A stretch of 21,960 bases of DNA, taken from the IMG/VR virus record IMGVR_UViG_3300004805_000038, positions 1-21,960 of that record. One strand, given 5' to 3'. This DNA is from a virus. The translations under genes were made by a program, and so were the position numbers. Shown here one piece after another: positions 1 to 12,300 of the stretch (position 1 is its first letter; each line of letters opens with the position of its first letter). The notes below the pieces were generated by a model. It searched no databases, was not told where the DNA came from, and worked only from the letters and a program-made list of their open reading frames with translations.

Positions 1-19
1 GAACTAACACTACAATTTT

Positions 20-235
20 TTAAAGCAACTCATAACTAACAATATTCTTAACTTTCTTGATTTGTTTGATTTTACCTCTTAATTCCAATTCATTGAGTTT
101 TGTGTGAATTGTTTGAGGTGTTACCTTAAATACTCCAGCCATAAAACCCGCTCCAGGTGTTACTTTATATTCTGTATAGAATCTAACAATAAAAGCATAC
201 ATTTCTTCAGGAGTGATCTTTGTTACAAATGTCAT
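20..235 (-). CDS. Small LexA-like winged-helix DNA-binding protein, 71 aa
   Basis: This 71-residue protein looks like an isolated winged helix-turn-helix of the LexA N-terminal type. An N-terminal helix (about residues 9-22, with PEEMYAFIVRFY) is followed by a loop with V-T-P. A second helix and a recognition helix follow (about 38-52, VTPQTIHTKLNELELRG), then a basic wing (KIKQIKKVKN, 54-64). LexA has the same order, but the dimerisation/protease domain is absent, so this is not a self-cleaving repressor. It is the only clear transcription regulator in the window and lies in a short minus-strand pair pointing away from the late genes. A sigma70-like promoter with a dyad over its -35 lies just upstream (265-305), so autoregulation is likely but inferred. 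No Shine-Dalgarno sequence precedes the ATG. The fold is fairly sure; the target and whether it represses or activates are unknown. Confidence 0.75.
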   Translation of the reverse strand: MTFVTKITPEEMYAFIVRFYTEYKVTPGAGFMAGVFKVTPQTIHTKLNELELRGKIKQIKKVKNIVSYELL

Positions 236-264
236 ATGTTTCTTGCTTATTTACTTATATTACC

Positions 265-293
265 ATTATACTACATAATGATAAATTTGTACA
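265..293 (-). promoter_or_regulatory. Minus-strand promoter of the winged-helix gene
   Basis: Read on the minus strand there is a perfect -10 TATAAT (plus-strand 265-270). Exactly 17 bases upstream is TGTACA (288-293), matching four of six bases of TTGACA. Transcription would start near 258, about 23 bases before the ATG at 235. The spacing and the perfect -10 make this a good vegetative promoter. It is a motif match only. Confidence 0.6.
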
Positions 294-305
294 CAGCCAG
301 GCTGT
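293..305. promoter_or_regulatory. Operator-like dyad over the -35
   Basis: ACAGCC and GGCTGT form a perfect inverted repeat around a single central base. It directly abuts and shares one base with the minus-strand -35 element (288-293). A protein bound here would block the promoter, so it is a natural operator for the LexA-like protein encoded just downstream. Which protein binds is inference. Confidence 0.5.
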
Positions 306-315
306 TAATAACTAA

Positions 316-359
316 AATAGGTATAGTTATACATAAATTATACGTATTCTATACCTATT
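316..359. repeat. 11-bp inverted repeat with nested GTATA/TATAC dyad
   Basis: The arms AATAGGTATAG (316-326) and CTATACCTATT (349-359) are perfect reverse complements separated by 22 bases. The left arm overlaps a second dyad, GTATA-GT-TATAC (321-332). The right arm overlaps the stop codon of the upstream minus-strand gene (355-357). There is no T-tract, so a protein-binding site is likelier than a terminator. The nested dyad recurs at 1151-1162 upstream of the late promoter. Confidence 0.55.
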
Positions 360-582
360 CTACAAATCTTGATCCTGGTATTATATCTAAAGCACTCGTT
401 AACAACTCTGAATCCTTCTCGTTACGCACTCCTCGAAGCTTCTGGAGCGCGTTCTCTATGTTTTCTACATCTTCTTTAGATAACATCCATTTACTAAGTT
501 GATACATATTCTGGAATGATTTAAAGTCACGTTTTCGCCAGTATTCTCTTAGTGCTTTCATAAGTATCTCATTGCTCGCCAT
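355..582 (-). CDS. Hypothetical 75-aa helical protein
   Basis: I do not recognise this 75-residue protein. It is rich in charged residues and predicted helix (ILMKALREYWRKRDFKSFQNM near the start, then SKEDVENIENALQKLRGVRNEKDSELL). It has no cysteine pair, membrane segment or signal peptide. It is the first gene of the leftward pair, 119 bases upstream of the winged-helix gene, which has its own promoter. The ATG has no Shine-Dalgarno sequence and is preceded by an A/T-rich leader, as elsewhere in this genome. A longer + strand reading frame across 104-502 is judged a shadow. Coding is likely from the charged, regular composition, but the function is unknown. Confidence 0.55.
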   Translation of the reverse strand: MASNEILMKALREYWRKRDFKSFQNMYQLSKWMLSKEDVENIENALQKLRGVRNEKDSELLTSALDIIPGSRFVE

Positions 583-716
583 AATTGTATTGTTTTAATG
601 TTTTATGTTGTAATAATATATTAGATACAATGCGTTTATCTGTATCTATATAGAATGCAGATTGAGAGAAGAGACTATGAAGAAACAAAACTTTCGGATT
701 TTAGGTTTAAGTAGAG

Positions 717-992
717 CTTCTAAACAGAATACAGTCTAGGTTGCTCGCCAGCAGAGCCTAGAATTTTGTTCTATTTAGAAGGGTGGTTCGGTCTGAGGCC
801 GGATGCTTAACCTTCCGCATATGAATATCTTGGAGTTTTTGATATTAGAGAATCCCCATAAACTCGTCATTGTTTCGTTGTACAAGACGCCTTTATTTCT
901 ATGTCGAACTCATCGCCGTTTTTTATGTCCAAGCATCCATATTATGTATCTATCATGCTATCTGGGGAAAATAACATAATAGATACATAATA
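717..992. ncRNA. Gene-free, heavily folded region; candidate structured RNA
   Basis: Several base-paired elements follow one another. First, CTTCTAAACAGAA (717-729) pairs with TTCTATTTAGAAG (769-781) in 12 of 13 positions. Inside it TCTAGG (735-740) pairs with CCTAGA (757-762), around a small GCT/AGC hairpin (743-752). Next, CGGTC/GGCCG (789-801) is flanked by GGTT/AACC. GGATGCTT (801-808) is complementary to AAGCATCC (931-938) and would close a 120-base domain. That domain contains AATATC/GATATT (824-846) and a bulged CGTC-TTGT/ACAAGACG hairpin (865-889). A 14-bp inverted repeat ends it (940-992). Bases 778-782 can pair with 717-720 or alternatively with CCTTC at 811-815, so the folds compete. 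No tRNA, known ribozyme core or convincing gene was found. The expressed strand is unknown. Confidence 0.35.
940..992. repeat. 14-bp perfect inverted repeat
   Basis: TATTATGTATCTAT (940-953) and ATAGATACATAATA (979-992) are exact reverse complements around a 25-base loop. There is no adjacent T-tract on either strand, so it is not a standard terminator. A shorter relative, TAGATACA with TGTATCTA, lies at about 623-649. A similar core appears in the hairpin at 18183-18221. It could be a cruciform, a protein site or an RNA hairpin. Confidence 0.65.
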
Positions 993-1012
993 CGAAGCTG
1001 TAAATTGAGACC

Positions 1013-1045
1013 AAAAAAGCAACATACTTAAAAAGTAGTTGCTTT
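1013..1045 (-). terminator. Minus-strand factor-independent terminator
   Basis: Arms AAAGCAAC (1016-1023) and GTTGCTTT (1038-1045), plus TACTT (1025-1029) and AAGTA (1033-1037), make a 13-bp stem with one bulged base and a three-base loop. On the minus strand the stem runs into six T residues (1018-1013), the usual intrinsic terminator form. It would stop leftward transcripts arising between here and the late genes. No minus-strand gene is seen there, so it may insulate against antisense read-through. Confidence 0.6.
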
Positions 1046-1104
1046 AGTGGATATGATACACCATCCAAGACACATATTTAATTGTGGATTGTAGTTGTAG
1101 CATA

Positions 1105-1113
1105 TGATATAAT
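1105..1113 (+). promoter_or_regulatory. Extended -10 promoter, upstream late-region copy
   Basis: TGATATAAT is a perfect extended -10 (TGnTATAAT). No good -35 lies at 17 bases, which extended -10 promoters tolerate. A transcript starting near 1120 would run through the operator-like cluster and the second promoter to the terminator at 1291-1351. The same nine bases occur at 6065, 13256 and 18065. Confidence 0.45.
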
Positions 1114-1133
1114 AATAGCATGTTACGAGTAAA

Positions 1134-1195
1134 TTGTACACAGTCTAGAGGTATATGTATACGATAAGATATTAACAAGTTATTAACAGTCTGTT
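1134..1195. promoter_or_regulatory. Operator-like cluster upstream of the late promoter
   Basis: Four elements lie here: TTGTACACAG (1134-1143), AGGTATATGTATAC (1149-1162, a GTATA/TATAC dyad), AGTTATTAACAG (1178-1189) and the dyad AACAG-T-CTGTT (1185-1195). The first three each have a counterpart in the control region of the winged-helix gene: 287-296, 319-332, and 302-313 on the opposite strand. The cluster ends eight bases before the -35 of the main late promoter, so binding here could activate or repress it. The shared motifs are visible in the sequence; the binding protein is inferred. Confidence 0.45.
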
Positions 1196-1202
1196 TAAGT
1201 TG

Positions 1203-1231
1203 TTTACACTTATTGAGAAGTATGCTACAAT
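1203..1231 (+). promoter_or_regulatory. Main late promoter candidate
   Basis: TTTACA (-35, five of six bases), a 17-base spacer, an extended TG one base before the -10, and TACAAT (-10, five of six bases) make this the best complete promoter in the window. Transcription would begin near 1238, about 150 bases upstream of the small terminase gene. The transcript would pass through the terminator at 1291-1351. Confidence 0.7.
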
Positions 1232-1279
1232 GAAATTACATAATAGTTATTTATGCTATTCAGGGAAGCTTAGCAATAA

Positions 1280-1327
1280 ATGATCAATCAAGAGACTATC
1301 AAGAAGCAAGTTAAAAGGGTTTTTTAA
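1280..1327 (+). CDS. Possible 15-aa leader peptide
   Basis: A 15-codon frame (M-I-N-Q-E-T-I-K-K-Q-V-K-R-V-F) starts 42 bases after the predicted late transcription start. It stops inside the descending arm of the terminator's inner stem. CAGGG lies upstream (1261-1265), as it does before the capsid and 8179 genes, although here the gap to the ATG is 14 bases. Ribosomes translating this frame would open the terminator hairpin, as in attenuation. There is no run of one amino acid to act as a nutrient sensor, and so short a frame can arise by chance. Confidence 0.25.
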   Translation: MINQETIKKQVKRVF

Positions 1328-1351
1328 CTGTCTGAATGATGGTCTTTTTTT
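1291..1351 (+). terminator. Factor-independent terminator in the late leader
   Basis: The outer stem GACTATCA (1294-1301) pairs with TGATGGTC (1337-1344), with one G-U pair. It can extend three pairs into AGA/TTT. An inner stem GTTAAAA/TTTTAAC (1310-1316 and 1322-1328) has a five-base loop. Seven T residues follow (1345-1351), then ATTTT. It lies 40 bases before the small terminase gene and 60 bases after the best promoter. The late operon must therefore be expressed by read-through or antitermination. Confidence 0.75.
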
Positions 1352-1390
1352 ATTTTAGTTAATAGAAATAATCGTGTTAGGTTTATAAAT

Positions 1391-1690
1391 ATGGCTGGTA
1401 CTAAAGGAAACAGAAATTCAGTCGGCAATAAGGGTGGAAAATCACTTAACGATAGAAAACTCGCCGCGAAAGTAAGAACCTTGGCATTAACAGAGATTGC
1501 GAAGGTTTTAATGGCACCTCAAGATAATCCAGATCTATATAAAGGAGTATTACTCAGGCTTGCTGGAACAGTTTTGCCTAGACTTAATGAACACACTGGA
1601 GAAGACGGAGAGAGTTTAGTGATAACTATTAGTAAAGAAATAGCAGAAAAGAATGAAACTACACAAGACACAAGCGATAGTAGCAACTGA
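1391..1690 (+). CDS. terS: Terminase small subunit
   Basis: This 99-residue protein is the likely DNA-recognition subunit of the packaging motor. It would bind the genome's packaging site and bring it to the large subunit. The N-terminus (GNRNSVGNKGGKSLNDRKLAAKV) is the Gly/Asn/Lys-rich segment common at the start of small terminases. A helical core (VRTLALTEIAKVLM, LYKGVLLRLAGTVLP) and an acidic C-terminus follow. It is short for the family, but position and overlap support the call: the large-subunit gene starts 38 bases before this gene ends. The start has no Shine-Dalgarno sequence and follows an A/T-rich leader. It is the first gene downstream of the leader terminator. Confidence 0.8.
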   Translation: MAGTKGNRNSVGNKGGKSLNDRKLAAKVRTLALTEIAKVLMAPQDNPDLYKGVLLRLAGTVLPRLNEHTGEDGESLVITISKEIAEKNETTQDTSDSSN

Positions 1691-2852
1691 TAGACACCGT
1701 TTCAGGGTGTTGTGTAATGGTAGGCGTTGGGGAAAGACAACACTTGCTATTGAGGAGATTAAAGGTAAAGCTCTTTATAAAAAGACAAGGATTGCGTATA
1801 TTGCACCAACGTTTCAGCAGGCAAGAGATATTGCTTGGCAAATGTTGGTGAAAGAACTTGGGCCAATAGCAAAAAAGATAAATGAATCTCGTTTGGAATT
1901 AGAGGTTCATAATAATGTTGGAAGCACAAGTATAATCCAATTACGTGGTTGGGAAGCAATTGAGACACTTCGCGGTCAATCATTTGACTTCATCGTAATA
2001 GATGAGGTTGCAATGATGAGAAACTTCTGGCTTAATTGGCAAGAAGTTATTCGCCCTACATTGACAGACCGCAAAGGTGAAGTGATGTTTATATCAACTC
2101 CTAAAGGTTTTAATCACTTTTATGATTTATATAATTTCGAAGCGAAAGATGAAGATTTTAAGAGTTTTCATTTTACTAGTTACGACAATCCTCTTATTCC
2201 TAGTGATGAAATAGATAAAGCCAGAGTAGAACTACCGGAAGATAGATTTAGTCAGGAGTACATGGCAGACTTTAGAAAGACCGAAGGATTAGTATATAAA
2301 GAGTTTGATCGTACTCAGCATGTTACAGACATGCAGCCAAAGACAGTGATAGATACCCTTGCAGGAATCGACTGGGGATATACCAATCCAGCAAGTTCAC
2401 ACAGAATTAGAATAGATGCAGATAGAAGATACTATATAGATGATGAATTTTATCAAGCGAATAAAACTACTGAGCAGATTGTTGAATCAGTGAAACTAAA
2501 GAAAGCAACGAAAGTATATCCTGATCCTGCTGAACCAGATAGAAATGAAGTAGCGAATAGAATGGGACTCAATGTGATGCAGGTTTCGAAAGACATTAGG
2601 GCAGGCATAGATACGGTGAGAATGCTTCTCAAACAAGGAAGACTATTCATTCACCCTGATTGTCTAAACCTCATAATGGAATTAGAAACTTATCATTATC
2701 CTGATCGTAAGCCTGGACAAAATGAATATGAGAATCCAGTGAAAGAAAACGATCATTGTTTAGATGAGATAAGATATGTTTTGCATAACATTGAACATAA
2801 TCAAGTACAAGATATTTCTGGTCAATTCCCTAAGGAAGAGTTGACTTGGTAA
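1653..2852 (+). CDS. terL: Terminase large subunit
   Basis: This is the ATPase and nuclease of the head-filling motor. Walker A is GRRWGKTT (23-30), Walker B is FIVIDEV (113-119) and the coupling motif is ISTP (147-150). The RNase H-like nuclease begins with GIDWGYTNP; its acidic residues are likely D240, D291 (YPDPAEPD) and D371 (DHCLDEIRY). At 399 residues it is at the short end of the family because the N-terminus begins only 22 residues before Walker A. All catalytic motifs are intact. The ATG lies inside the small-subunit gene with no good ribosome site, which suggests translational coupling. The portal gene starts six bases after the stop. Confidence 0.96.
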   Translation: MKLHKTQAIVATDRHRFRVLCNGRRWGKTTLAIEEIKGKALYKKTRIAYIAPTFQQARDIAWQMLVKELGPIAKKINESRLELEVHNNVGSTSIIQLRGWEAIETLRGQSFDFIVIDEVAMMRNFWLNWQEVIRPTLTDRKGEVMFISTPKGFNHFYDLYNFEAKDEDFKSFHFTSYDNPLIPSDEIDKARVELPEDRFSQEYMADFRKTEGLVYKEFDRTQHVTDMQPKTVIDTLAGIDWGYTNPASSHRIRIDADRRYYIDDEFYQANKTTEQIVESVKLKKATKVYPDPAEPDRNEVANRMGLNVMQVSKDIRAGIDTVRMLLKQGRLFIHPDCLNLIMELETYHYPDRKPGQNEYENPVKENDHCLDEIRYVLHNIEHNQVQDISGQFPKEELTW

Positions 2853-2858
2853 AACATT

Positions 2859-5012
2859 ATGAAAGTAAAAGAAGAAAAAACAATAGCCAAAGATGAAGAC
2901 AGTAAGCTCCTTGCTGATCTTATTCATCATTGGAATGAATCAGATAAGTATCTAGAACCAATAAGAAATGGTGCTTTTAGTTGGGACGAACGTGAGAATC
3001 TTTTGGTTGGTAATTTGAAAGATGCAGGATCACAGAAGACTAAGTCTAAGATCAATACTCAAGACTTAGTGAATCTTGTTCTTGATGGAGCATCACGTGT
3101 CATGGCACAGTTTCCTACTGGTACTATTCAAGCACTTACTGAAGATGACAAAGGAAAAAGTATTCTTATGAATATTGTTCATGAGAAATATATTGTTCCA
3201 AATGCAGACAGTCAATATGACTTTCTTACTAAGCTTCGTATCTGGGACATATATTCTCGTGTGTTTGGTTCTATGCCTGCGTTAGTTGACTACAGGATTG
3301 ATGACGACTACATTGGACCTGATATGTGGATCATTCACCCAAGATCATTCTTCCCACAAGCTGGTTGTACTAATATCTCTGAGATGCAGTTCGCTCAAGT
3401 TTCAACTTGGGTATCCGTTGAATTTTTAGAGCGTCAAAGCAAAGGAACATGGAAGAACTTAGATAAACTCATCAAAAAGGTAAAAGATGGAGACAAGACC
3501 AAACAACAGCAAGACAGTAAATATCTTCCAGTGAATGAACGTCTTAATGGTGATCTTGCACCTGAATCTGGCGAATATGCTCAATGTGAACTTTTGACTG
3601 AATATAGACGTGATCGTTGGATTACCTACTCGAAGGATCATTCTTTGATTGTTCGTGACATTCCAAATCCTCAACACAACAATGAACTTCCAATTGTAAT
3701 GAAACATTGTTTTCCTTTATTGGATAGACTTTATGGACTTGCTGAGTTTGAAAGAGGCTACACATTGCAGTATGCAGCGAACAGTCTCATCAACCTCTAC
3801 ATGGACGGCGTTCAAATGTCAATCTTTCCACCGCTTATCATCGATCAGAATGGCGTTGTTGCATCTTCTATTGAATACAAAGCAAAAGCTAAGTGGCTTA
3901 TCACTAAGCAAGGAGCTATTGACCAATTGAAGTTGACTCCTCAAGGAATGAATACTTTCAATAGCACTTACTCATTCATTAAGTCTCAAATGTTGAATCT
4001 TGGTGCTACTACTGATACGACTGTCTCAACAGACACGGACCCAGGTGCAGGTAAAACTCCAGAAGCGTTGAAGCGCCAAGGAGCTCGTGAAGGTGCTAGA
4101 GACAATTGGGATAGGTTCATGATGGAGAAAGCTCTTGAACAAGTAAATCAGAAGTTCATTGATCTTTTGACTACCAAGCAAGAGAAACCTATTGAAGTAA
4201 ATCTTTTCAAATCTGATATTGAGAAACTTTCGGCAGCTTATCCTAATGAAGACTTGACTACATTGTTTGGAGGTTCAGTAAAACTGTTTGACTCTAAGAA
4301 TGCTGGCAAAGTAACAATCGCATCAAGTTCTTGGAGGGACTCAAATAGTAAGAAGAAAGATGAGCCGAATACAATCAAATTCAAGTACACTATTGATTCT
4401 GGTTCTACTATGAGAACGGATGAAGATGCTGAACATACTGCACTTACAGATATTATGGCTTTAGTGTTGAAGTTTCCGAATGCTGCAGAACAAATTGCAC
4501 AATCTGGAAAAGTAACACTTGGAGACAAGACTTTCAACTTCGGTGAAGCATTAAAACGTTACATTATCACTTCTGGTGTTCAAGACGGAGAAAAGATCAT
4601 CTCAGACAATAAAGAACAAGGTCAAGAAACTGGGCAGCAAGAGCAAGACAGTAAAGCACAGATTGCACAACTTACTCAACAAATGCAGCAAATGACACAG
4701 TTAGTGACACAACTTTCTGACGAGCTTAAGAAACCTAAAGGCAAAGCACCAAGTGAATCACTCAACTATAAAGATGCTCCAGAATCAGTTAAAAGACAAA
4801 TAGAAGCGCAAGCAGGACTTGCTCCTGCGGTCGAGATGACACCAACTCCAGATGGCAAAGATCCAATATCACATGCTATGGACTACTTACATAGTCAGAA
4901 TGCTGTGAATATGCCAGTGCCTCAAAACAATCAAACAATAACACCTCAACCTCAAGGACAACCACTTCAGGATCAAAGTGCTGAACAATTGTTAGGAGGA
5001 AGTCCTCAATAA
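2859..5012 (+). CDS. Portal protein
   Basis: This 717-residue protein sits immediately after the large terminase and has the size and shape of a short-tailed-phage portal, the dodecameric ring through which DNA enters and leaves the head. The N-terminal part (LLADLIHHWNESDKYLEP, then an FSWDERENLLVG segment) and the central SLINLYMDGVQMSIFPPLII and GKTPEALKRQGAREGARDNW stretches are typical of the clip, wing and stem region of P22-like portals. The last 130 residues are different. They are Gln-rich, with a coiled-coil segment (IAQLTQQMQQMTQLVTQLSD) and a Pro/Gln/Asn-rich tail that may form the barrel or a flexible end. No enzyme motifs are expected. The call rests on position, size and local resemblance, not on a diagnostic residue. 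Confidence 0.85.
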   Translation: MKVKEEKTIAKDEDSKLLADLIHHWNESDKYLEPIRNGAFSWDERENLLVGNLKDAGSQKTKSKINTQDLVNLVLDGASRVMAQFPTGTIQALTEDDKGKSILMNIVHEKYIVPNADSQYDFLTKLRIWDIYSRVFGSMPALVDYRIDDDYIGPDMWIIHPRSFFPQAGCTNISEMQFAQVSTWVSVEFLERQSKGTWKNLDKLIKKVKDGDKTKQQQDSKYLPVNERLNGDLAPESGEYAQCELLTEYRRDRWITYSKDHSLIVRDIPNPQHNNELPIVMKHCFPLLDRLYGLAEFERGYTLQYAANSLINLYMDGVQMSIFPPLIIDQNGVVASSIEYKAKAKWLITKQGAIDQLKLTPQGMNTFNSTYSFIKSQMLNLGATTDTTVSTDTDPGAGKTPEALKRQGAREGARDNWDRFMMEKALEQVNQKFIDLLTTKQEKPIEVNLFKSDIEKLSAAYPNEDLTTLFGGSVKLFDSKNAGKVTIASSSWRDSNSKKKDEPNTIKFKYTIDSGSTMRTDEDAEHTALTDIMALVLKFPNAAEQIAQSGKVTLGDKTFNFGEALKRYIITSGVQDGEKIISDNKEQGQETGQQEQDSKAQIAQLTQQMQQMTQLVTQLSDELKKPKGKAPSESLNYKDAPESVKRQIEAQAGLAPAVEMTPTPDGKDPISHAMDYLHSQNAVNMPVPQNNQTITPQPQGQPLQDQSAEQLLGGSPQ

Positions 5013-9301: not shown

Positions 9302-12300
9302 ATGACTTTACAAGACTTATACGACAATATAAAAAAGTTTGCCGGTTCTGCCAATGATGTTGTTCAGAATACTGCAAATTTTATTGGTCAACCAGGTACT
9401 GCTGCAGGTCAAGGTCTTCGTAATTTTGGTTCTCAAGTACAGCAAAACATTCAATATGCTGCGCCTTCACAGGATCAAAGATATGATTCTAATGTTCCTC
9501 AGTTTTTCAAAAACATGGGAGACTATCAGTGGGCAATTTCGAAAGCAATGGAAGGTGCCAAGACTGTTGACTATTCAAAGAATGTACAAAATCCAATAGG
9601 AAAGTTTGCAATTGATGCTGTGACTACTCCAATTAATGCTATTCCAAAATTCATCAATGCTGTGGGAGATGCTGGACAAGTGGCAGGTCAACAAGGAGGG
9701 CCGACTGCTTCTGATCTTGCTAGAATAGGAGGAAAATCTGCTGGTGTTGGACTTGACTTGATGTCACTTTATGGAGGAGGTGCTGCTGCAAAAACCGTAG
9801 GTGCTGAATCTTTAGGTAAGATTGGACTTCAACAAGCGATAAAAGACGGACTCATTACTGGTGCAAAGGCTGGTGGTGGTTTTGGCCTTGCTTATGGTGC
9901 CTCTCAAGGTATCCAACAAGGAGATAATCTTCCAGATCAATTCAAGAATATGGTTGAGCAAGCAGGTCTTCAAGGATTATTCGGTGCTGGTATTGGTGCT
10001 ATTTCAGGTGGAGCTATTGGCGGTGCTGGACACGAAATTGGGGCTATTGGAAGAGATGTCATGCAAGCAAGAAACCCAGAAACAATCTTAAATAAAAATC
10101 AGAAGTACATTAATACTGGATCACTTATATCTTCAGATGGTTCTCATCCTAAGATGGTTGATCCTAATTTCTTTAATCCTGAATCACTTTTAGGAAAAGG
10201 CATCATGAAACTTGAAGGAGGAGGTCTTTCTATCAGAGATGTAGCAACAGGTGCATCAGATATTCCAGGTCAAATGAAAGTTCCGCCAGTTAGGACTACA
10301 ATGAATAAAGAAATTGCTGCTATTGTCAGAAAGAACCTAAAAGCAGGAAAAGAGCCTTTTGCAGGCGTAGATCAGCCAATTCCAGCTGAAAATGCTGTAG
10401 AAAGAGGGTTGGTGAGCTCTGTAAAAACTTCTGGGAACCCAAATATCACACCAGAAGCTAAATTACAGACAAATGGTACATATATACCAAAGGCGAATGC
10501 AGACACGTTAGGTGAAGCCCAGGCACTTCTCACGGAAGGTGGATCAATAGACTTCCATAATGTCAAAGACCTTGATAAAAAGGTCATGGCTACTATTCAA
10601 CAAGCCATTAATCTTGATAAACAAGGGAACCATCAAGCCGCTGCTAATCTCTACAATAATTTGTCAATTCATGGGACTGAATTAGGGCGCGGCGTTCAAG
10701 CATTTTCAATGCTAGACAAAATGAGTCCAGAAGCATTGTCTCTTTCATTAGCTGGGCACATCAAAAAGTATAATGCAACACATTCAACTCCAATTCCAGA
10801 ACTTGGACCAGAACATCAACAGATGATCTCAGACTTCATTAGTAAAATTGATGGATTACCAGCCGGAAGAGAAAAGAACATTGCAATCAATGAATTCAAC
10901 AAACAACTTAGCAATTTATTCCCATCTAGTTTTGCAGACAAAGCAATTACTGTCTGGAAAGCAGGACTTTTGACAAGTCTTAGAACACATGAAAGAAACT
11001 TACTTGGAAATGCTGTCATGCTAGGATCAGAAGTTGCTAAAGATTTACCAGCAACACTTGCAGACAAAGCAATGTCTATAGTGACTAAACAAAGAACAGT
11101 CACACCAACGCTTTCTGGAATGAGAGAGTTTGGATCTAAAGAAACTAGACAACAAATTAAAGATTTAGTAATGAGAGGATATGACCCATCGGAAGACGTA
11201 GGTAAATTTGACGTGCATAGAAATATTACTTGGGCAAATACTCCAATACAGAAATTCTTGAAAGGATATACTGAAGCAGTATTTAGACCACTTGGAGCTG
11301 AGGATAAAGCATTCTTCAATGCAGCATTTAAACGTTCGCTTTACGATCAAGCTGGAGCTGAAGCTATCAACGCTGGTAAAAAAGGTGATGCTGAATTTAT
11401 TAAGAGTTTAGTATCAAGTCCAAACGAAAATATGCTCGCTAATGCGACTAAAGATGCAAACTATGCAACATTCCATGACAAGACTGCTCTTTCAGGACTA
11501 GCTACATCTGGAAAACAATTCTTATCACGTCAACAAGGTTTGAAAGGCGAAGTTGGAAAACTTGTTTCTGAAATGGTTGCACCTTTTACTGGTGTACCTT
11601 CTTCAATTGTTGGAAAGACTGTTGCATATTCGCCACTTGGATTAATTCGTGGAGTTTATCATGCTGGAAAAGTTATGGTAAAAAATGTACCAGAACTTCA
11701 GAGACAAGCTGCTCAAGAAATTGGAAGAGGTACAATGGGTTCTGGCATGTTTGCATTAGGTTCTTATTTAATGAGTAAAGGATTGATGACTGGACAACCT
11801 AAAGATGCAAAAGAAGCTGATCTTTGGGCAGCACAAGGAAAACAAGCAAATTCTGTATTAGTTGGAGGAAAATGGAGAAGTATTAATTCAATTGGACCTC
11901 AAAATCTTGTTGTTCTTGCTGGTGCAAAATACAATGAAGAAATGAACAAACCAGATGGATCTTTTGGTGAATATGCAATGGGATTAGGAAAAGATCAATT
12001 AAGTCAAACATTTTTGCAGGGTGTACAAGGACCACTTAATGCATTATCTGATCCAGGAAGATATGGCGCTAATTACTTTGGAAACCAATTATCTTCTGGA
12101 GTTCCTAACATTATTAAAGATATGTCAAAGGCTGGTGATACTGTTCAAAGAGAAAACAACACACCACTTGATTTTGTTACTAACTCAATCCCAGGACTAA
12201 GAAACCAGAACATTGAGAAGCGTGATGTTATGGGACAACCCCTTCCGCAAGAACCAACAGGAGCAGCTGCATTCTATGATTTATTCAATTCAAAAGAACA

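Follow-up and report, generated by a model that had tools for sequence, protein, structure and literature searches.

Introduction

The Q-controlled late promoters of lambdoid phages combine a strong vegetative promoter with a terminator in the leader and the late genes beyond it. A passage of PMC7171158 names the Pfam entries PF03589, PF06530 and PF06323 for the Q family and mentions a pause at the Q-controlled late promoters. In the switch of the CI/Cro type known from phage lambda, palindromic sites that repeat one operator are common to two control regions, and a small regulator gene adjoins them. Further comparison is offered by promoters regulated by DnaA, at which a box-like element lies near the -35 hexamer; a passage of PMC3985674 describes DnaA-box-like sites downstream of lambda pO as bound by DnaA, and the reference list of that paper names DnaA-stimulated transcription at ori-lambda. 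Finally, LexA and HrcA carry a winged helix together with an S24 peptidase domain or an HrcA C-terminal domain, respectively. Full-text literature searches gave two papers that name phages of CPR, Saccharibacteria or Patescibacteria, and no paper combining phage, Patescibacteria and late promoter.

Here, we analysed a 21,960-bp stretch of viral DNA, the whole of which is called the window below. It resembles the lambdoid arrangement in its predicted strong vegetative promoter, predicted leader terminator and late genes beyond. However, Pfam recognised no Q-family protein (PF03589, PF06530, PF06323) among the 17 distinct proteins scanned from the window, which is a fragment without early genes, and no Q-binding element can be named in it. 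We know of no counterpart in lambdoid Q systems of the three shared motifs and the divergent promoter described here. With the CI/Cro type, the window shares palindromic sites common to two control regions and an adjoining small regulator gene, but it has three unlike palindromes in place of one repeated operator, two of its motifs overlap a -35 hexamer and a terminator-like stem, and its regulator is a candidate only. As in DnaA-regulated promoters, a box-like element is present near the -35; relatives of the window have exact TTATCCACA, whereas the element of the window, TTATTAACA, is inexact, lies directly 5' of the -35 and belongs to a late and a regulator promoter, not to an origin. The winged helix of LexA and HrcA can be aligned with a 71-aa protein of the window, at 28-33% identity to five winged-helix domains; however, this protein is a stand-alone domain and lacks the S24 peptidase and the HrcA C-terminal domain.

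A predicted divergent promoter region precedes the late genes

The window runs rightward through the small and large terminase subunits, a portal-like protein, the major head protein and tail genes. Bases 1-582 are taken up by two small leftward ORFs, of 75 and 71 aa, and the late genes follow after some 800 bases of non-coding DNA. The features of this part, with their source in brackets, are:

20-235, minus strand: 71-aa ORF, candidate stand-alone winged-helix DNA-binding protein (ORF call, weak matches)
265-293, minus strand: predicted leftward promoter P_A, of the 71-aa gene (promoter scan, 10/12)
355-582, minus strand: 75-aa ORF, no detectable family (ORF call, family searches)
1112-1140, minus strand: predicted leftward promoter P_L (promoter scan, 9/12, TG before the -10)
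1203-1231, plus strand: predicted rightward late promoter, TTTACA-17-TACAAT (promoter scan, 10/12, TG before the -10)
1391-1690, plus strand: TerS-like small terminase subunit, 99 aa, first late gene (phmmer relatives beside TerL elsewhere)
1653-2852, plus strand: large terminase subunit (profile and relative searches)

P_A is composed of the -35 TGTACA (293-288), 17 nt and the -10 TATAAT (270-265), and P_L of the -35 TGTACA (1140-1135), 17 nt and the extended -10 TGC-TATTAT. Judged by the predicted promoters, 1061-1240 is a divergent promoter region and not the late promoter alone. An earlier, sequence-only reading of this DNA had set one vegetative-type promoter against each of two control regions; promoters are indeed predicted at both, but they number three and not two. 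In the first bases of the predicted late transcript, CATAAT (1239-1244) was noted by eye; it is a candidate for the -10-like element of a sigma-dependent pause such as that of lambda-type Q-controlled late promoters. A tRNA scan found none, an Rfam search of positions 1-3000 of the window gave nothing convincing, and DNA likeness in phage records amounted to 22 weak short matches, none of which spans the motif region.

Two control regions share three palindromic motifs

The computed matches of the three motifs are:

287-296, plus strand, and 1134-1143, plus strand: M1, TTGTACACAG (exact-match scan)
319-332, plus strand, and 1149-1162, plus strand: M2, AGGTATANNTATAC (exact-match scan)
1178-1189, plus strand, and 302-313, minus strand: M3, AGTTATTAACAG (exact-match scan)
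1167-1178, plus strand: imperfect M3, AGATATTAACAA, with 2 mismatches (mismatch scan)

The sequence-only reading had placed the motifs at the positions of the exact copies, correctly in every case, and had named commonness of the motifs as an argument against its own view; they are not common in the window, since each has two exact copies and none besides. The order and orientation of the motifs differ between the regions, as had been noted, and the spacing of about 850 bases is borne out by an M1-to-M1 distance of 847 nt. Palindromes lie within all three, namely TGTACA within M1, GTATAnnTATAC within M2 and the odd-length GTTATTAAC within M3. M2 reads AGGTATAGTTATAC at 319-332 and AGGTATATGTATAC at 1149-1162, so that the copies agree in their arms and have GT in the centre of the one and TG in that of the other; the second copy sits between the divergent promoters. 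When at most 2 mismatches are allowed, M2 has 8 copies in the window in comparison to a shuffle mean of 2.1. The likeness of M3 runs longer than the motif itself, with 15 of 16 bases agreeing between 298-313 and 1178-1193.

Chance sharing was assessed with dinucleotide shuffles, in which the 119-nt intergenic stretch 236-354 was compared with 583-1390, these being the two non-coding stretches. The three-match score of 33.0 was reached by 0/400 and then by 1/6000 shuffles. An unrestricted k-mer coincidence test of the whole window was not significant, and shuffled windows usually give two or three shared 9-10-mers per paired 70-bp stretches; the significance of the trio rests on the non-coding comparison, because such shared 9-10-mers are ordinary over the whole window. 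The best single motif match is weak when taken alone (10/400 shuffles; 0.055). With the trio at 1/6000 shuffles, the claim that two control regions, at the regulator and the late promoters, have three palindromic elements in common holds up. We conclude that M1-M3 very probably belong to jointly regulated promoter regions, and that the co-regulation is probably real.

For M1, a simple role can be proposed. Its copies hold, on the minus strand, the -35 hexamer TGTACA of P_A (287-296) and of P_L (1134-1143). TGTACA has 10 strand-occurrences in the window, and only the two leftward M1 copies are followed at 16-18 nt by a -10 that scores 5/6 or better, with both pairs spaced exactly 17 nt. Since only these copies have a well-placed -10, the simplest reading of M1 is as the -35 hexamer shared by P_A and P_L.

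A terminator-like hairpin lies in the late leader

Two terminator-like hairpins bear on the control regions:

318-357, minus strand: terminator-like hairpin followed by TTTT, containing M2 (dG -15.4, T score 3.7)
1290-1355, plus strand: terminator-like hairpin 1290-1348 with a T-rich tail, in the late leader before TerS (two-strand scan)

On either strand of the window, no terminator-like site is stronger than the hairpin at 1290-1348 (-19.9 kcal/mol), and an equal or better hairpin occurs anywhere in 5/60 shuffled windows. For the hairpin at 318-357, which starts where the 75-aa ORF has its stop codon, the support comes from this place, since shuffled windows hold about one hairpin of such quality. 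The stretches 669-688 and 1290-1309 share 18/20 bases (AAGAGACTATnAAGAAnCAA), and the second copy forms the 5' arm of the late-leader hairpin. The predicted layout, a late promoter and then a leader terminator, is thus found here as in lambda-type Q-controlled late promoters. Since an intrinsic terminator is predicted in the late leader, late expression would also need read-through, and an early/late switch operated by a repressor only would be incomplete. In the compact switch that had been suggested earlier, the shared elements at both promoters stand, while the repressor-only version falls short for this reason.

Relatives of the terminase were taken from viral contigs, of which 80 loci were kept out of 192 (53-71% identity), and from genome contigs, which gave 3 loci (one labelled Candidatus Nomurabacteria and two from MAG nzgw467). 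A terminator (dG -15 or better) follows 9/67 promoter-like sites upstream of TerL in comparison to 5/159 elsewhere, in a count covering 65 relatives and the window. The 9 sites correspond to 7 distinct loci, i.e., the window, L006, L008, L023, L038, L051 and L060 (L024 is a copy of L023, and L038 contributes two sites with one terminator). By eye, L012 and L108 have a like layout, the terminase of L108 being only 28% identical, and promoter-terminator pairs ahead of terminase are present in eight loci besides the window. Most relatives have no leader terminator at the thresholds used. The recurrence of this pair before terminase points to antitermination or attenuation of late genes; an antiterminator was not recognised in the phages with the pair.

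In five leaders the element CUGMCCG-n-CGGAGG was seen by eye before the terminator stem (L006 at about 1279, L012 at about 404, L023 at about 3890, L060 at 2720 and L108 at 379). The late leader of the window does not contain it, and the leaders that do gave no convincing match to an Rfam family. A 126-nt stretch of the L108 leader folds at -68.6 kcal/mol. Rfam searches of six relatives gave nothing convincing, except that L023 has a stretch resembling a group I intron (9770-9925; 40.8 bits, just short of the gathering score of 50).

The leader terminator also enters an explanation without any shared regulator. According to it, M1 would be only a -35, the M2 in the terminator stem would be alike by chance, M3 would be a chance repeat, and leader read-through alone would control the late operon. 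The non-significant unrestricted k-mer test and the weakness of the best single match speak for this possibility, as does the fact that M1 and one M2 copy have regulator-independent roles. However, it has to account for the joint occurrence of the motifs (1/6000), and for M3 standing at a near-equal place and in like orientation before two promoters, with a gap to the -35 of 8 nt at P_A and 13 nt at the late promoter. We give it a low probability.

The 71-aa protein is a candidate regulator

The 71-aa protein has only weak Pfam and PHROG matches. It finds matches in 36/379 genomes of the phylum in comparison to 11/379 for the reversed sequence (E 0.1), the best at 4.6e-4. In each of the 8 loci returned for it, the matched part is a winged-helix domain (according to Pfam in six, and judged by their resemblance to L097 in L098 and L099), and they comprise HrcA-like proteins (4), LexA (1), an ArsR-like protein (1), a small winged-helix protein (1) and a LexA-like-methyltransferase fusion (1). 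An AF2 single-sequence model is of low confidence (pLDDT 54.6) and shows three helices and no wing. The Pfam family LexA_DNA_bind did not match the protein at E 10, and Pfam did not find the C-terminal S24 domain (Peptidase_S24) in the ORF. Judged by sequence, the protein is probably a winged helix; of the label "LexA-like winged-helix" given to it before, the winged helix is thus retained, and the LexA protease domain is absent. No relatives of the 71-aa protein were detected by tblastn in phage records or in 39 relative contigs, peptide patterns gave none for the 71-aa and 75-aa proteins, and a fold search with the 75-aa model gave no PDB match below E 0.001. In one bacterial genome (L103), a LexA-like winged-helix domain is fused to an N6/N4 DNA methyltransferase.

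The motifs could be classic operators, in which case the 71-aa protein, or another phage repressor or activator, would bind M2, M3 and perhaps M1, repress its own gene and set late expression. This is consistent with three palindromic elements being common to two control regions beyond chance, with the adjoining regulator-like gene that reads from one of these regions, with the resemblance of its product to a winged helix, and with the kept arms and varying central bases of M2, as in dimer sites. On the other hand, three unlike palindromes demand more than one protein or a very loose specificity, the M2 copy at 319-332 lies inside a terminator-like stem and M1 is a -35 hexamer. Moreover, nothing in the sequence evidence ties the protein directly to the motifs, and the searches gave no relative of the 71-aa protein that would allow a comparison of its sites. 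We regard operators of this kind as possible, on the unlikely side. The more specific proposal that the 71-aa protein is the binder of the motifs gained no support, given the lack of a tblastn relative, the low-confidence model, the simpler roles available for two of the motifs and the likeness of the third to a DnaA-type box present at promoters of the relatives.

DnaA-type boxes stand before predicted promoters in terminase relatives

The sequence TTATCCACA, which we take to be the DnaA box, has 37 exact copies upstream of TerL and 4 downstream of it when 60 non-redundant relatives are counted, whereas 40 permuted control 9-mers average 2.3 copies upstream and 4.2 downstream (64 loci). The exact box lies within 60 nt of a promoter-like -35 in 18/37 cases in comparison to 13/162 for the control 9-mers, and all but one of the 18 listed pairings have the box on the 5' side of the -35, with a gap of 1-9 nt in 11. 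Of the 37 upstream copies, 9 are inside ORFs of at least 80 aa; such ORFs account for 70.6% of this DNA. Counted from the promoters, TTATCCACA is found at most 45 nt 5' of the -35 at 16/173 upstream promoter-like sites (14 loci) and at 0/96 downstream sites. Its one-mismatch variants are barely enriched (102 upstream and 115 downstream, 1.4-fold per base). Exact boxes right before strong sigma-70-type promoters upstream of TerL were observed in L007, L017, L038, L005, L013, L043, L055 and others.

The window has no exact TTATCCACA; M3 has TTATTAACA and M1 has TTGTACACA, and these two variants stand beside 0 promoters in the relatives. Counterparts of M1-M3 are conserved in none of 16 terminase relatives (of 83 loci), and an element common to the late-promoter upstream DNA and other upstream DNA was significant in 0/13 testable relatives; this test comprised 14 loci with the window, and 3 more relatives had too little DNA. 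M3 nevertheless fits the DnaA-type boxes of the relatives in its placement beside a promoter -35, and it agrees with the extended box AGTTATCCACAG at 10/12 positions. Among the 16 promoter-like sites of the window scoring at least 10/12, only the late and regulator promoters are preceded, in the 35 nt before the -35, by a sequence that departs from AGTTATCCACAG at no more than 2 bases, and the remaining sites show at least 4 mismatches. Shuffles of 1-1400 gave one such match in 3/1000 and two in 1/1000, a figure that is weakened because the 12-base consensus was adopted after its likeness to M3 had been noticed.

We also considered use of the M3 box elsewhere and rejected it, since viral contigs show no clear excess over the reversed control: GTTATTAACA upstream of a consensus promoter is found in 23 stretches vs 14 in the control, or about 12 vs 10 after near-identical copies were merged by eye. 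The exact composite M2...M3 occurs in 10 stretches of viral contigs, which are unrelated and by eye mostly coding, and none of them has a terminase relative at E 1e-3.

DnaA-type boxes together with AT-rich DNA could also mark a replication origin and have nothing to do with transcription control. M1 and M3 are each one base off TTATNCACA, the DnaA box consensus, and the intervening non-coding DNA (590-1060) contains four copies of TAGATACA as well as a near-perfect inverted repeat of 22 nt. However, a cluster of exact boxes is missing, and transcription control fits better because the boxes of the relatives stand singly by promoters, mostly 1-9 nt from the -35. An origin seems to us very improbable.

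Shared sites may co-ordinate the regulatory and late units

From the computed motifs, promoter and terminator predictions and box enrichment we infer binding, its agent, the direction of regulation and read-through in the following manner. The two regions would be the promoter regions of a leftward (regulatory) and a rightward (late) unit, co-ordinated by the shared sites. M1 would supply the -35 hexamer for the two leftward promoters, and M2 would be an extra palindrome between the divergent promoters, with its other copy in the terminator-like hairpin of the 75-aa gene. M3 would be a box close before the -35 of both the regulator and the late promoter, as the counterpart of the DnaA-type box of the relatives, and DnaA, or a protein of such specificity, probably touches polymerase there; M3 is equated with this box because of its position and its 10/12 bases, which makes a DnaA-like binder probable. 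Late expression would in addition need read-through, by antitermination or attenuation. That the promoter-linked sites M1-M3 co-ordinate both units, with M3 being of the DnaA type and the leader terminator acting as a second gate, has in our judgement a little less than an even chance.

A wider and doubtful extension of this proposal takes in all of the phages related by their terminase, a part of which may live in Patescibacteria. Such phages might tie their promoters to the replication initiator of the host via a DnaA-type box immediately before the -35, in most cases at 1-9 nt; the diverged M3 of the window would do likewise at the regulator and late promoters, with the late genes past the leader terminator, and the phage would read the replication state of the host as a switch. 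For the phage of the window, we infer a host in Patescibacteria from the terminase relatives in genome contigs. Should the boxes have the function indicated by the relatives, they would offer a testable handle on early/late timing in phages of poorly cultivated bacteria with tiny genomes.

Further observations in the window and its relatives

The non-coding stretch 590-1060 has, on either strand, a more stable predicted fold than its shuffled versions (z -3.8 and -6.0), contains a near-perfect hairpin at 940-992 and holds all four copies of TAGATACA in the window; it could be the leader of a leftward transcript. In L010, of which L011 is a near copy, GGTTAGCAT is present in 23 copies. In L005, an integrase-like gene and then a partial tRNA-like sequence were seen by eye upstream of terminase (2908-3960), which suggests a temperate relative.
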